DNA from: Bacteroidales bacterium
Lineage (GTDB): Bacteria; Bacteroidota; Bacteroidia; Bacteroidales; UBA932
Length of the DNA: 50,535 nt
Direction of reading: 5' to 3'
Assembly: GCA_028686425.1 (NCBI GenBank)
Contig: JAQUBZ010000001.1
Span: forward strand, 1-50,535
Numbering within the stretch: position 1 is the stretch's first letter; every line of letters starts with the position of its first letter. Shown in pieces: positions 43,651 through 50,407 of this stretch. The notes beneath the pieces are model-generated. The model was not told the DNA's origin and did no database searches. It saw nothing but the letters and a program-made list of their open reading frames with translations. The position numbers were made by a program, and so were the translations under genes.

Positions 43651-44304
43651 TTATTTGCAAAACTCCCCGTCTTTCATCTCCAATGTCCTGTCGGATAGCG
43701 CTGCAAGGTCTTTATCGTGGGTAACAATGATGATTGTCAGGCCGAATTTGTCCCTCAAATCGAAAAATAACCGATGCAGTTCCCCTTTGGTCTTACTATC
43801 AAGGTTTCCGGAGGGCTCATCTGCAAACAAAACAGTGGGGTTATTAATCAAAGCTCTTGCTATGGCCACCCTCTGCTGCTCACCTCCGCTGAGTTCAGAG
43901 GGTTTGTGATTAAGTCTTTCTCCAAGTCCAAGTTCCTTCAAAAGTGAAGCAGCTTTATCAGAGGCTGTTTTGCGAGAATAATTGGCTATAAGAGCAGGAA
44001 TCATCACATTTTCCAGAGCGGTAAATTCGGGAAGCAGATGGTGTGCCTGAAATACAAATCCTATCTTTTTGTTCCTAAATTCGGCCATCTGCCTCTCGGA
44101 AAGGGAAAAAATATCTACTCCGTCAATCTCCACGCTACCTTTATCGGGTCTGGAGAGAGATCCGAGTATTTGCAAAAGGGTTGATTTGCCGGCACCGCTG
44201 GCCCCGACAATGCTGACAACTTCAGCCTCTTCCGCCTTAAAACAAATATCCTTCAGGACCTTTAGGGTCCCGAAGGATTTGTCTATATGATTAGCGATAA
44301 TCAC
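43651..44304 (-). CDS. lolD: LolD-type lipoprotein-releasing ABC ATPase
   Basis: 217 residues: Walker [11 protein letters not shown]-loop [23 protein letters not shown] (a signature of LolD/MacB-type ATPases), [32 protein letters not shown] and VTHDKDL. It supplies ATP hydrolysis for release of outer-membrane lipoproteins or a similar MacB-type process. No LolC/E permease is adjacent. The start is GTG at 44302-44304, overlapping the EF-G2 stop by one base, so translation is coupled. Confidence 0.88.
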
Positions 44305-46457
44305 TACTCGTCTTCCTGTTCTTCTTCGTATGCTTTCAACAACTTGTCCTGAACATCGGCAGGTACCTGCTGATAGTCGGCAAAAGCCATTGTAAACGTA
44401 GCACGACCGGAAGTCAGCGAACTCAATGTAGTTGAATATTTATAAAGTTCGGCCAATGGAACACGTGCTTTAAGCACCTGGAATCCTTTTTCGGAACTCA
44501 TACCTTCGATGATTGAACGACGGTTCTGCAAGTCTGACATAACATCACCCATGCAATCTCCCGGAACAAGTACCTCAACATTATAAATAGGCTCCATAAT
44601 CTTAGGACCTGCATTCTTAAATGCCTCTTTAAATGCATTACGTGCTGCAAGTTTGAAAGAAAGCTCATTTGAGTCAACGGGGTGCATCTTTCCATCAAAC
44701 ACAAATACCCTGATGTCACGAGCGTATGATCCTGTAAGAGGTCCTTCAACCATCTTTTCCATAACACCTTTAAGAATAGGAGGCATGAAACGTGCATCAA
44801 TTGCACCGCCGACTATACAGTTGTAATATTCAAGCTTGCCGCCCCAATCCATTGTATATTCTTCTTTTCCTTTGATGTTCAATACCATTTCACGTCCGTC
44901 AATCTTGAAGCGGTTGTTAGCTTCAACACCTTCAACGATAGGTTCAATCAACAGATGAACTTCACCGAACTGACCTGCACCGCCTGACTGTTTCTTGTGA
45001 CGATATGAGGCAACGGCCACCTTGGTAATGGTCTCACGATATGGAATACGTGGAGCAAACAAGTCTATTTCAATCTTTTGAACATTATTGATATACCATT
45101 TAAGAATATTGATATGCTGTTCGCCCTGACCGTTTAAGATAGTCTGTTTCAACTCCTTAGAGTATTCAATAACAAGTGTCGGGTCTTCAGCATTGGCTCT
45201 GTTGAGGATTTCGCCCAATTTCTCATCGTCTTTCTCGACTTTCGCCTTAATGGCTGTACGATATTTTGAAGGAGGGAATACTATAGGTGCGACAACATTA
45301 TCATTACCTGCCTGATTCAAAGTCTGATTGGTCTTGACTGATTTCAATTTGACTGTACATCCAAGGTCTCCGGCCAACATTTCGGATACTTTTTCCTTCT
45401 TCTTTCCGGCAACTGCATAAATGGCCGATACACGCTCTTTTGAACCGGTTTCCGGATTAACAACATCCTGACCTTCAGTAATTTTACCAGAGATAACCTT
45501 AAAATAGGTCACTTCACCAAGATGCTGTTCGACAGCTGTCTTATAAACGAATATTGAAGTAGGTCCGGCAACATTACATTTGATGTCGGCACCTTCTTTG
45601 CTCTTTTCAACATCCTGCGCAGGAGACGGAGCCACATCAATGATGAAATCCATCAAACGTTTGACACCGATATCTTTCTTTGCAGAGAGGCAGAATACAG
45701 GATAAATATCCCCATTGTCAAATCCTATCTTAAGACCTTTGTTTACTTCTTCTTCCGTCAATTCTCCCGCTTCAAAGAATTTCTCCATCAAAGCTTCGTC
45801 GTTTTCGGCAGCCATCTCCATAAGGGCAGCTTTCATCTCCTGAGCTTCATCTTTATGATCTGCCGGAATTTCGCACTCTTCTCTTGTACCGTTTTCGTCT
45901 TTGAAGCGATACATCTTCATCTTCAGAATATCGATAAAACAATCAAAGCTCAAACCCGGATTAACAGGGTACTGCACAATTACAGGTTTGCTTCCGAAAG
46001 CCTGATGAAGAGACTCTATTGTATTCTCCCAATTTGCTTTTTCTGCATCAAGTTGATTAACCCCTATAATGACAGGCATCTTGTATTGCTCCGCATAACG
46101 ACCCAGAATCTCTGTACCTACCTCAACGCCCTGCTGAGCATTGACAACCATTACTCCGGTATCACAAACTTTAAACGCAGAGATAACGCCACCCACAAAA
46201 TCGTCTGCCCCCGGTGTGTCTATTATATTCAACTTATTGTCCATGTACTCAGCATATAGTGGTGTTGAGTAGATAGAGCGTTGATAAAGTTGTTCGACTT
46301 CTGTGTTGTCAGACACTGTATTCTTTGCTTCTACGGTACCTCTGCGGTCGATGACTTTGCCTTCAAACATCATGGTTTCAGCCAAAGTGGTCTTCCCGGA
46401 CCTCGTACCCCCAAGCAAAACGACGTTTCTAATGTTTTCTGTGGAGTAAGTTTTCAT
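44304..46457 (-). CDS. EF-G2, elongation factor G paralogue with degenerate GTPase site
   Basis: 717 residues with the full EF-G domain order: G domain, domain II ([25 protein letters not shown]-type), III, IV ([57 protein letters not shown]) and V ([36 protein letters not shown]). The P-loop is GGTRSGKT (16-23). Switch II is DTPGADDF (80-87), so the catalytic His of DTPGHVDF is Ala 84. Switch I has RSIYST (60-65) in place of RGITI. The G4 motif is NQLD (134-137) rather than NKxD. This fits the Bacteroides EF-G2 type, described as supporting translation without GTP hydrolysis during carbon starvation. It leads an operon with lolD and trmN6. Confidence 0.93.
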
Positions 46458-46514: not shown

Positions 46515-46546
46515 CAAATTTAGATTATTTATTTTAAAAAAACAAT
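46515..46546 (-). promoter_or_regulatory. Promoter of the EF-G2 operon
   Basis: Minus strand TAAATTTG (46515-46522) is a perfect -7 box, with ATTG 20 bp upstream (46543-46546). The upstream half lies inside the 3' end of the glycerate kinase-RNase HII gene. Confidence 0.55.
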
Positions 46547-48177
46547 CTATCTTTATCCGGTAATAATTTATAACTAAGTCTGTGATATTTGGTAACTCCA
46601 TATTTTTCTATGGCCTCTCTATGTTCTGCTGTGGGATAGGCAACATTTTTATCCCATCCGTATTGTGGAAATTCTTTTGAAATATTTTTCATATACTCGT
46701 CCCGATGTGTCTTGGCGAGTATGGAAGCTGCTGCAATACAAGACATTTTTCCATCTCCTTTGACTACACAATGAGAGACTATATTGAGATAAGGTTTGAA
46801 CTTGTTGCCATCCACAAATATCATAGAGAGCTCTCCATGCTTGAGATCAAGTCCGTCAAGAGCTTTGTGCATCCCCTTTATTGATGCATTCAAAATGTTG
46901 ATTTTGTCTATCTCTTGAGGAGATATGGCTGCCACACTCCATGCAACAGCCTCTTTTTCAATTATTTGTCTAAGCTCCTCACGCTGATGTTCACTCAATA
47001 TCTTGGAATCGTCAAGCAACGGGTGATAAAATCCCTCCGGTAGTACTACTGCGGCTGCAAATACAGGCCCTGCAAGGGCTCCGCGGCCCGCTTCATCGCA
47101 TCCTGCCTGAAAATAATATCCCTTCATAACCTCTCCTGCATTATTTATAGACCTGTGTATATCTGGTTCAATGTCGGACAGTGTATATACGTCCCTTATT
47201 CCCACCTTTTTCCATACATTCTGAGGTAAAAGAGATTGTCCGCACACCACATAAAGCTCCTTTTTGTATTTCGAGCACAAAGAGGCTATTCCATCTATCA
47301 ATTTACCGCTAAGGCTCTGATAATCAAATCGTCCCTCTCCGGTAATGACCGCATCCGCTTTTTTGATCTTTTCTTCGAGGAAGACCATCTCCCCAAACAA
47401 TTTCCAGCCTGGAACAAGTTCGGCATTGAGAAAACCGTAAAATGCAGCTCCTATGCCTCCCGCGGCCCCTCCTCCCGGGATTGTCCTATATCTCGCTATT
47501 CTCTCTTTGTCTATACCCTTCTCTTCCATAATCTTTTCTGCTTTCCCGGCAAAAATTTCCATTCGTCTCTCAAGTATTTCAAGCATATCCCGGTCAGCTC
47601 CTTTTTGCGGACCATATACCATAGTCGCCCCATTCGGGCCCAGCAGCGGATTATCCACGTCGGATGCCACCAGAAATTCGACTCCGTCAGAAGAAATATC
47701 GTTTTCGAGCATTCCCGCTCCTCCGTCATTTGTGGCGCTTCCACCTATCCCGACAATAATCCTGACCGCCCCAAGCTCAATCGCTTTCTTGATCATTACA
47801 CCCAGCCCGTATGTTGTGGTCTTCTCCGGATTCTGCTCCTGCGGCTGCAACAAGGTAAGCCCGCAGCACTTTGCCATCTCGATAAATGCACACTTGCGAT
47901 AATCTTGTTCAAATAGAAGCATCGGCGCTTTTATTTTTCGCATCAGCGGATCAAATGTATCAACCTCTGCTATATGCCCTTCTGTGCCGATTGCATTGGA
48001 AAGCACCTCTAAAGAGCCGTCACCGCCATCCGCCAATGGTAACTTCTCTATCCTCGTATTTTCAATATTTACAATCCTTTTCATTAATGCCGATTCCAGA
48101 CAATCAGCAACTTGAGCAGCAGTCAGCGACCCTTTGAACTTGTCGGGGACAATCAGTATTTCTCTTTTTGAATTCAT
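46534..48177 (-). CDS. Glycerate kinase-ribonuclease HII fusion protein
   Basis: 547 residues with two unrelated enzymes in one frame. Residues 1-350 are a GckA/GarK-type glycerate kinase: ILIVPDKFKGSLTA, LADGGDGSLEVL, VGIGGSATNDGGAG, SDVDNPLLGPNGA, PGGGAAGGIGAAF and TGEGRFDYQSLSGK. Compared with usual kinases (about 375 residues) it seems to lack some 25 residues after NDGGAGML and the last helix. Residues 351-547 are complete RNase HII: GCDEAGRGALAGP (Asp 361, Glu 362), DDSKILSE, FVDGNKF (Asp 456) and HRDEYM (Asp 493). RNase HII removes ribonucleotides from DNA. Met 351 (47125-47127) follows a good ribosome site, so RNase HII may also be made alone. Confidence 0.9.
   Translation of the reverse strand: MNSKREILIVPDKFKGSLTAAQVADCLESALMKRIVNIENTRIEKLPLADGGDGSLEVLSNAIGTEGHIAEVDTFDPLMRKIKAPMLLFEQDYRKCAFIEMAKCCGLTLLQPQEQNPEKTTTYGLGVMIKKAIELGAVRIIVGIGGSATNDGGAGMLENDISSDGVEFLVASDVDNPLLGPNGATMVYGPQKGADRDMLEILERRMEIFAGKAEKIMEEKGIDKERIARYRTIPGGGAAGGIGAAFYGFLNAELVPGWKLFGEMVFLEEKIKKADAVITGEGRFDYQSLSGKLIDGIASLCSKYKKELYVVCGQSLLPQNVWKKVGIRDVYTLSDIEPDIHRSINNAGEVMKGYYFQAGCDEAGRGALAGPVFAAAVVLPEGFYHPLLDDSKILSEHQREELRQIIEKEAVAWSVAAISPQEIDKINILNASIKGMHKALDGLDLKHGELSMIFVDGNKFKPYLNIVSHCVVKGDGKMSCIAAASILAKTHRDEYMKNISKEFPQYGWDKNVAYPTAEHREAIEKYGVTKYHRLSYKLLPDKDRLFF
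47125..47137 (-). promoter_or_regulatory. rnhB: Internal ribosome binding site and start codon for RNase HII
   Basis: On the minus strand AGGAGAGG (47130-47137) precedes ATG (47125-47127), with its AGGAG core ending 5 nt before the codon. Translation from here gives a 197-residue RNase HII starting MKGYYFQAGCDEAGRG, the usual full length. Strong Shine-Dalgarno sites are uncommon in this window, which makes a chance match less likely. Confidence 0.6.
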
Positions 48178-48223: not shown

Positions 48224-50407
48224 ATGAAGAAAATCACTCTTTTATTTTCATTGGCCTTTCTGCTTATCCTCACCCCGGCAAGGGCAGATGAGGGTATGTG
48301 GCTGTTGCCATTGCTCGAAAAAATGAATATCAAGACGATGCAGAAGATGGGTCTCCAGCTCACTGCCGAAGATATTTACAGTATTAATCACTCATCTCTC
48401 AAAGATGCGGTAGTCCATTTCGGCGGGGGCTGCACAGGTGAGATTATCTCTGCCGAAGGGCTTCTCGTCACAAATCACCACTGCGGTTACGGCTCCATCA
48501 GAAAGCTCAGCACAGTCGAACACGACTATCTGACCAATGGATATTGGGCCATGAATCGCAATGAGGAGCTTCCTGCAGAGGGACTTACGGTCACTTTTCT
48601 TGAAAGTTTCACGGATGTGACCAAAACCATCGAAAAAGCTCTCAGGAAAGCAGATGATCAACATGTCAAAGACAGTCTTTTCCGCTCAATATCAAGCGAA
48701 CTTGTGTTGAAAGCTGTTGGAAACAACCAATTCCTCAACGCCAATGTCTATTCGATGTATGGAGGCAATGCCTACTATCTGGTAGTGTCCAAAACATACA
48801 AAGATGTCCGTTTTGTCGGTGCTCCACCTTCATCAATCGGCAAATTTGGTGCAGATACGGACAACTGGATGTGGCCGCGTCATACTTGCGACTTTTCAAT
48901 GTTCAGAGTATATGCGGACAAAGACAACAATCCTGCAGATTATTCGGCAGACAATGTCCCTTACAAGCCTAAACAGCACCTGACCATCTCTCTCAAAGGG
49001 GTGAAACCTAACGACTTTACATTTATAATGGGATATCCCGGACGTACCAACCGCTTCATGACTCAATCGGAACTTGTCGAGACACGCGATATTACCAATG
49101 CCATCAGTATTTATACAAGAGGCATTCGCCAGGAATTGATGATGGAAGACATGCTTGCCTCTCCAAAAGTCAAGATTCAGTATGCAAGCAAATACAGCGG
49201 CTCTTCAAACGGATGGAAGAAATGGATCGGGATGAATGAAACCTTTGCAAAACTCAATGTGGAGCAGCGCCGTGCACAGGAAGAAGCCGAATTTACCAAA
49301 TGGGTATCCGAAAAGAAATCGCGACAGAAACAATATGGCGAAGCTTTGAACAAAATCAACTCAGCCATTGCCGACAGAAAAGATGCCACTTATGTCAACC
49401 GCTATCTGAGTGAAACTCTCAATAACGCAGAGATTGCTTCTATCGCATTCTATATCAACAGATACTACCAGGCTCTTCAAAGAGCCGCCTCTCCGGCGGA
49501 TAAGAAGCAGCTTGAACAGGACATCAGGGATTTGATCGATGCATTCTATACCGACTATTCGGCACCTACCGACAGGAAGATTATCAAATCAATGATCAAA
49601 ATCTATCGCGATAAGGTATCTGCAGACTATCATCCTTCTTTCTATCAGGAAATTAACGAGAAATTTGGTGGAAATATCGACAGATATGTCGATAATATGT
49701 TTGATAACTCAATATTCGCTTCCAAAGAGAAATTACTGAACGTTATCAACGCACCGAAACAGGAATCGGCCGATGAGACTGCATTTGCCGCTAATCCTAT
49801 ACAGGATGACCCTGCTCTCAAATACTCACTCTCTTACAGGAAGATAGTCCCTGCTCTTCGCAACAAGATTGCTGCAAGCCAGAACGATTTTTACGAAGGC
49901 AAGAAACAATATATTGCAGGTCAGCTTGAAATGCGTAAAGGAACAGCTATTTATCCCGATGCAAACTCCTCAATGAGACTCACTTACGGTACTGTCCTCC
50001 CTTATTCTCCGAAAGATGCCGTGGTTTACAACTACTACACTACTCTTGACGGTGTAATGGAGAAAGAGGATCCGGATAATTGGGAATTTATCGTTCCGGA
50101 AAAACTGAAAGAGCTGCATGCCGCCAAAGATTACGGACGTTATGCAATGAGCAACGGACAAATGCCGGCCTGCTTCATCACAAACGGTGATATTACAGGA
50201 GGTAACTCGGGAAGTCCCGTTCTCAACGCCAAAGGAGAGCTTATCGGTCTTGCATTTGACGGCAACTGGGAAGCAATGTCGGGCGACATTATTTTTGAAC
50301 CCGAACTTCAACGCTGTATCAACGTTGACATAAGATATGTATTGTTTATCGTTGACAAATTCGGAGGAGCCGGATATCTGCTTGACGAAATGACTATATC
50401 GGAATAA
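48224..50407 (+). CDS. S46 dipeptidyl-peptidase, DPP7 type
   Basis: 727 residues from the ATG at 48224 with a signal peptide (MKKITLLFSLAFLLILTPARA). An in-frame upstream start lies before the promoter box. The chymotrypsin-fold catalytic triad is visible: His in VTNHHCGYG (82-90), Asp in DNWMWPRHTCDFSMFR, and Ser 662 in GGNSGSPV. The large helical insertion of the family lies between. The S1 residue is Gly 680 (AFDGNWEAMSGD). DPP7 enzymes have Gly here and prefer hydrophobic residues at P1; DPP11 has Arg and prefers acidic ones. It releases dipeptides from oligopeptides in the periplasm, for amino-acid fermentation. Confidence 0.94.
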   Translation: MKKITLLFSLAFLLILTPARADEGMWLLPLLEKMNIKTMQKMGLQLTAEDIYSINHSSLKDAVVHFGGGCTGEIISAEGLLVTNHHCGYGSIRKLSTVEHDYLTNGYWAMNRNEELPAEGLTVTFLESFTDVTKTIEKALRKADDQHVKDSLFRSISSELVLKAVGNNQFLNANVYSMYGGNAYYLVVSKTYKDVRFVGAPPSSIGKFGADTDNWMWPRHTCDFSMFRVYADKDNNPADYSADNVPYKPKQHLTISLKGVKPNDFTFIMGYPGRTNRFMTQSELVETRDITNAISIYTRGIRQELMMEDMLASPKVKIQYASKYSGSSNGWKKWIGMNETFAKLNVEQRRAQEEAEFTKWVSEKKSRQKQYGEALNKINSAIADRKDATYVNRYLSETLNNAEIASIAFYINRYYQALQRAASPADKKQLEQDIRDLIDAFYTDYSAPTDRKIIKSMIKIYRDKVSADYHPSFYQEINEKFGGNIDRYVDNMFDNSIFASKEKLLNVINAPKQESADETAFAANPIQDDPALKYSLSYRKIVPALRNKIAASQNDFYEGKKQYIAGQLEMRKGTAIYPDANSSMRLTYGTVLPYSPKDAVVYNYYTTLDGVMEKEDPDNWEFIVPEKLKELHAAKDYGRYAMSNGQMPACFITNGDITGGNSGSPVLNAKGELIGLAFDGNWEAMSGDIIFEPELQRCINVDIRYVLFIVDKFGGAGYLLDEMTISE

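Follow-up and report, generated by a model that had tools for sequence, protein, structure and literature searches.

Glycerate kinases of the PF02595/TIGR00045 family, with solved structures from Salmonella (3cwc) and Neisseria (1to6), combine a flavodoxin-like and a restriction-enzyme-like domain, and bacterial RNase HII, the product of rnhB (PF01351, NF000595; solved structures 7uwe, 2etj and 3o3g), is a DNA-repair nuclease that cleaves DNA 5′ of an embedded ribonucleotide. Two-enzyme gene fusions form a general class in bacteria, and fusions are often taken as a sign that the joined proteins work together. The stretch of 50,535 nucleotides from the genome of an uncultured Bacteroidales bacterium analysed here (the window) encodes a glycerate kinase fused to RNase HII, a combination of which no description was found in the open-licence literature of PubMed Central. 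Both enzymes are well known; what appears to be new is their fusion, whose assembly and later decay are documented with unusual completeness.

Results

The fused gene (46534..48177, minus strand) is a single frame of 547 codons that runs from ATG to TAA without an internal stop. Residues 1-352 (47122..48177, minus strand) match the glycerate kinase profiles Gly_kinase PF02595 of Pfam (340.5 bits, cut-off 23.3) and TIGR00045 of NCBIfam (287.2 bits, cut-off 168.45), and residues 358-537 (46567..47106, minus strand) form a complete RNase HII domain recognized by Pfam RNase_HII PF01351 (120.2 bits, cut-off 25.8) and by the equivalog model NF000595 (224 bits, cut-off 167). In an alignment of 38 proteins D361, E362, D456 and D493, the G364-R365-G366 motif and Y514, all of which we take to have catalytic roles, are either invariant or conserved to 90% or more. 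The sequence-only reading, which had seen in this one frame a glycerate kinase and a complete RNase HII with all its catalytic acids, is confirmed by these matches and by one-frame homologues; the fused gene is real, and its nuclease half is predicted most likely to do the usual job of RNase HII. At the very C-terminus (46534-46580 in the window), 36 of 83 RNase HII rows from the window and its relatives end in LF or LFF past a variable stretch, which might, as a guess, be a clamp-binding tail.

The kinase half contains the motifs PDKFKGS, ADGG, GGSATNDGG, DVDNPLLG, PQKGA, GGGAAGG and TGEGRFD, presumably catalytic, which an alignment with 25 other kinases shows to be common to fused and unfused proteins, apart from small changes in a few relatives (TAEGR in G025, G002 and G031). 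The match along the kinase profile is interrupted, as positions 146-181 of 372 are skipped after GGSATNDGGAGML, and the C-terminal tail of the kinase is absent from the fused protein. The skipped stretch corresponds to a loop deletion (site at residues 157-167; 47677..47709, minus strand) which leaves all motifs in place, and the length of this loop varies among relatives, with a short form in the majority of the fused proteins aligned and a long one in G003 and G034; the short loop is therefore not damage special to the window genome. The earlier impression of a kinase shortened in the middle and at its end thus holds as a description, but not as genome-specific damage, and the kinase half is predicted most likely to phosphorylate glycerate, its usual job.

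A predicted model of the fused protein (mean pLDDT 79, pTM 0.57), built on an alignment of 38 sequences of which five cover the kinase and which is hence shallow for that half, displays two folds, a confident one for RNase HII and one of moderate confidence for the kinase, whose best solved matches are 7uwe_C, an RNase HII chain, and the Salmonella glycerate kinase 3cwc. Between the last kinase helix and the first RNase HII strand lies a low-confidence linker (residues 338-353; 47119..47166, minus strand; pLDDT < 50). The draft assembly from which the window derives (G000; 2.2 Mb, 51 contigs, 92% complete) contained no PF02595 gene other than this one and matched the fused protein nowhere else; a separate gene of the RNase HI type is present.

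An internal ribosome site, AGGAGAGG-TT-ATG at Met351 (47125..47137, minus strand), had been read just before the RNase HII half, with AGGAG five bases ahead of the in-frame ATG. The letters are as described, but they do not behave as a working, conserved element. Among 42 fused loci (L025, L026 and L134 cut by contig ends, L137 of G124 frameshifted, L004 identical in sequence to L111), an ATG at this codon, eight codons ahead of the GCDEAGRG motif, is found in the window alone, and an ATG anywhere within 10 codons of the motif in three. Any of ATG, GTG or TTG occurs within this distance in 18 of the 42, at differing places; over the 30 codons before the motif 20 loci are without ATG and five without any of the three start codons. 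Within the window, AGGAG or GGAGG stands ahead of one of 31 ORF starts (taken as the first ATG in each ORF of 200 aa or more) versus 17 of 359 internal in-frame ATGs, and four-base Shine-Dalgarno motifs ahead of 3/31 versus 42/359, which agrees with the statement, in an excerpt of PMC6847099, that members of the Bacteroidetes are naturally without Shine-Dalgarno sequences. These counts rule out a conserved internal Shine-Dalgarno start.

In the window's genus (g1, 40 genomes listed), the complete one-frame fusion is present in 26 genomes, and one further genome (G124) carries it with a frameshifted kinase, two (G027, G024) run off contig ends but are fused as far as they go, two (G029, G019) hold a remnant fusion and one (G032) a stub, in two (G021, G006) RNase HII stands alone with nothing matching the kinase, and six gave no match. 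The genus g39 (25 genomes listed) is fused in 12, with G204 cut by a contig end, and has a remnant in one (G123), rnhB without an in-frame kinase in eight and four uninformative genomes (G157, G248, G252, G269); matches in the two genera were listed down to about 3e-67, with three matchless genomes unnamed. One genome of a third genus, g28, is also fused (G245, locus L032, the yak MAG JAGBTG010000052.1); the listed relatives that belong neither to g1 nor to g39, G245 aside, have an unfused RNase HII. No further fusions appeared in samples of the order (295 genomes, among the matches listed, and 393 genomes) or of the phylum (395 genomes), own genome included; these samples overlap each other and sample larger groups, and at the threshold of E <= 1e-83 used for the 393 and 395 genomes G245 (1.2e-115) is visible and remnants like that of G029 (1.2e-78) are not.

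Some individual loci deserve mention. The frameshift of L137 (G124) lies near kinase residues 64-85 with the RNase HII match whole, and the RNase HII frame has its first ATG at about kinase residue 100. In addition to the fused gene, G010 has a further, incomplete RNase HII match that contains a stop (G010:C91:2735-3214), a paralogue, a pseudogene or contamination. Of the eight g39 genomes with separate rnhB, leaders were read in the five other than G211, G233 and G238; in the separate g39 proteins L154, L156, L158, L162 and L176 the leader ..LF....Y..IAGCDEAGRG resembles by eye the fused g39 linker, as if the separate genes had split off from a fusion. Ahead of rnhB in G211 stands a long open frame (331), possibly a kinase remnant.

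Both halves are under purifying selection: dN/dS of the kinase was 0.07-0.23 in 14 informative pairs of fused genomes and that of RNase HII 0.03-0.18 in the 12 of these with computable dS, synonymous sites being saturated in the pairs G000/L031 and G243/G223; the sequences of a fifteenth pair did not differ. That the one-frame arrangement recurs in many genomes of two genera, with its motifs kept and with selection on either half, argues for a true bifunctional protein, the first of two interpretations offered before.

The other interpretation, a lost stop codon that had joined two overlapping genes with RNase HII still made separately, is not supported for the window, given the gene order in unfused relatives, the window-only ATG and the Shine-Dalgarno motifs unused at the window's ORF starts. 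Kinase and rnhB lie within 6 kb of each other in 13 of 54 genomes, which had been chosen partly for having shown both genes, and in all 13 (G070, G121, G155, G106, G134, G255, G220, G142, G250, G118, G071, G107, G072) they are convergent, with an S46 peptidase beside the kinase and an EF-G gene beside rnhB. This order rules out overlapping same-strand genes as the ancestor. The two matches end only 45 bases apart in G070; on one contig but far apart they occur in G063 (about 11 kb, divergent) and G104 (about 29 kb, same strand).

The same neighbours flank the fused gene in the window, namely an S46 dipeptidyl-peptidase (48224..50407, plus strand; PF10459 above its cut-off, the Dpp7 model below) and elongation factor G2 (44304..46457, minus strand; NF058620 above its cut-off), followed at the block end by a LolD-like ABC ATPase (43651..44304, minus strand; TIGR02211 below its cut-off, PF00005 above). 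The EF-G2 gene belongs to a Bacteroidetes family, and an EF-G match keeps this place in the 13 convergent loci. In the window and in L031, L111, L112 and L032 the S46 and EF-G genes are unchanged in place and orientation, and rnhB is reversed and joined to the kinase. As the two genes converge in unfused relatives, the fusion would have needed an inversion of rnhB and an in-frame join; we infer that rnhB first turned round and then became attached in frame near the last kinase helix, its own leader being lost.

The kinase tree places the fused g1 and g39 kinases in one clade (99/98), and the RNase HII tree places g1 and g39, the separate g39 genes included, together with one g46 gene on one side of a branch (91/97). 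G245 groups with unfused g28 genomes in the kinase, RNase HII and RpoB trees, its sister in the RpoB tree being G220 with convergent genes (100/99). Forcing all fused kinases together is rejected by the kinase data (AU p 1.3e-9), and a single origin including G245 is not rejected by the RNase HII data alone (AU p 0.11). At least two origins of the fusion are thus supported by the kinase tree and a single origin of all fusions is rejected by it, with the RNase HII tree indecisive when taken alone. The RNase HII data also disfavour uniting g1 and g39 to the exclusion of the g46 row (p 0.02), as well as a clade of g1 by itself (p 0.04), so that the history of the RNase HII halves is less simple than that of the kinase halves; either gene transfer or a fit problem may be behind this. 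The RpoB tree, which comprises 36 rows (14 of 50 genomes gave no match), moderately supports g1+g39+G063 (85/89). Fragments of G027, G024 and G204 and the locus L033 (same genome as G121) were left out of the kinase tree, and the G124 kinase entered the kinase trees as its translation in the RNase HII frame, with the N-terminus out of frame. Across the rpoB region of L206 and L209 (G011, G028) runs a long open frame that is not rpoB.

The fusion in G245 looks young, as it has kept an in-frame ATG in what by eye seems to be the old rnhB leader, which resembles that of G220. A separate RNase HII start is therefore more thinkable there than in the window. The RNase HII genes of G021 and G006 (L138, L139) group with the g46 gene L171 of G140 (100/100) and their RpoB falls in g1, possibly a case of gene transfer.

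In G029 and G019 about 145 kinase residues are left of about 350; they lack the ADGG, GGSATNDGG and TGEGR motifs and continue in frame into an intact RNase HII domain. The remnants nonetheless match the g1 kinase profile (G029, 1.9e-8; G019, 3.1e-7), and that of G123 the g39 kinase profile (2.2e-22), the best E values among 1000 shuffled controls being 0.67 to 2.9 depending on the profile; in all of them the C-terminal part is significant and the N-terminal piece is not on its own. Since each remnant scores best with the profile of its own genus, the shrinkage to about 145 residues probably happened twice, once in G029/G019 and once in G123. The G032 stub retains about 30 kinase residues, and its leader aligns start to start with kinase N-termini (score 47, best shuffle 45; 0/3000 shuffles as good), with an E value of only 2-3 in the profile search. 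No other match to the fused protein was found at E <= 1e-3 in G029, G019, G032, G021 and G006, and G123 has another kinase elsewhere in its genome. G029/G019 and G021/G006 are nested among fused g1 genomes in the RpoB tree, which supports that fusion preceded decay. With a dN/dS of 0.28 (95% CI 0.17-0.43) the G029/G019 remnant is looser than the intact kinases, but clearly constrained.

Discussion

The fusion, its conservation, the order of the genes in unfused relatives and the decayed forms are evident from the comparison of genomes, and they are probably best explained by an accidental bifunctional fusion that became entrenched, by inversion, in-frame join, a neutral ratchet and later decay. 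The ancestral block would have been S46 peptidase, kinase, rnhB and EF-G2, with kinase and rnhB facing each other, until an inversion brought rnhB onto the strand of the kinase and an in-frame join cost it its own start. One transcript would then give one polypeptide of about 60 kDa, in which two independently folded, and presumably still catalytic, enzymes are held by a short flexible linker. As no RNase HII start is conserved, the cell would have to translate through the kinase in order to make the nuclease, and this reliance on the kinase start would entrench the fusion without any functional link between the two enzymes. Such entrenchment would also explain why in several genomes the kinase, where it later became dispensable, lost sequence in frame and left RNase HII intact. 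Against neutrality as the reason speak the genus-scale persistence of the fusion and the constrained remnant of G029/G019, neither of which pure neutrality requires; two in-frame joins of the same pair exceed the chance expectation of an accident, and G021 and G006 demonstrate a kinase-free RNase HII.

An alternative is that RNase HII has recruited the kinase fold as an accessory domain, for folding, dimerisation, targeting or sensing, and that its need for this domain now maintains the fusion. In two separate decays the kinase part next to RNase HII was kept with significant profile scores, the N-terminal piece, not significant by itself, was kept as well, the G029/G019 remnant is under purifying selection, and the kinase tree counts at least two origins of the fusion. 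The nuclease is found, however, with no more than a stub in G032, without kinase in G021 and G006 and unfused in the listed relatives other than g1, g39 and G245, and the low predicted confidence of the linker gives no sign of a fixed interface, with the kinase alignment being shallow. Co-option as a general account is therefore unlikely. For the decayed forms taken by themselves, it is only slightly less unlikely that G029/G019 and G123 carry an RNase HII with a needed, non-catalytic accessory domain recycled from a kinase, caught at successive stages in living species.

That RNase HII is made separately from the ATG at 47125-47127, with the fused product a mere by-product, is very improbable. 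The AGGAG ahead of this ATG and the start codons close to the motif in 18 of the 42 loci would suit it, but these codons sit at differing places, the window's ATG is its own, some loci have no candidate start, and AGGAG and its four-base variants mark few of the window's ORF starts in a phylum said, in the same excerpt of PMC6847099, to be without Shine-Dalgarno sequences. Equally hard to credit, and slightly more so, is selection of the fusion for co-expression or stoichiometry through some functional link of glycerate kinase and RNase HII: it would fit the long persistence and the repeated origin, but several g1 and g39 genomes have a reduced kinase or none and still keep RNase HII, and in all 13 close unfused pairs the two genes occupy opposite strands. 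A sequencing or assembly error that took out a stop or shifted the frame, conceivable for a draft in 51 contigs, is refuted by the same one-frame fusion, with constraint on its halves, in 26/40 g1 and 12/25 g39 genomes.

An accidental and entrenched fusion would bring together enzymes of unrelated pathways, encoded by genes which face each other in relatives and were joined apparently twice, and of which one partner then decayed in several lineages and the other stayed. The series of forms, from convergent genes through the fusion, the shrunken kinase and the stub to the absent kinase, makes the neutral route directly testable. It cautions against naive prediction of function from gene fusions and suggests how chance in the arrangement of genes may tie unrelated enzymes to each other.

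Compared with described glycerate kinases, the window protein has the family score and the motifs, but carries RNase HII in place of the C-terminal tail and a shortened loop after GGSATNDGGAGML. With bacterial RNase HII it shares the complete domain, the DEDD acids, the GRG motif and the tyrosine, but the enzyme's own start and leader are replaced by a kinase, and the gene is the only match to the fused protein in its genome. Like two-enzyme bacterial fusions in general, it joins two neighbouring genes in one frame; it differs from them in that the pathways are unrelated, the neighbours are convergent, which calls for an inversion, and one of the partners has decayed repeatedly.
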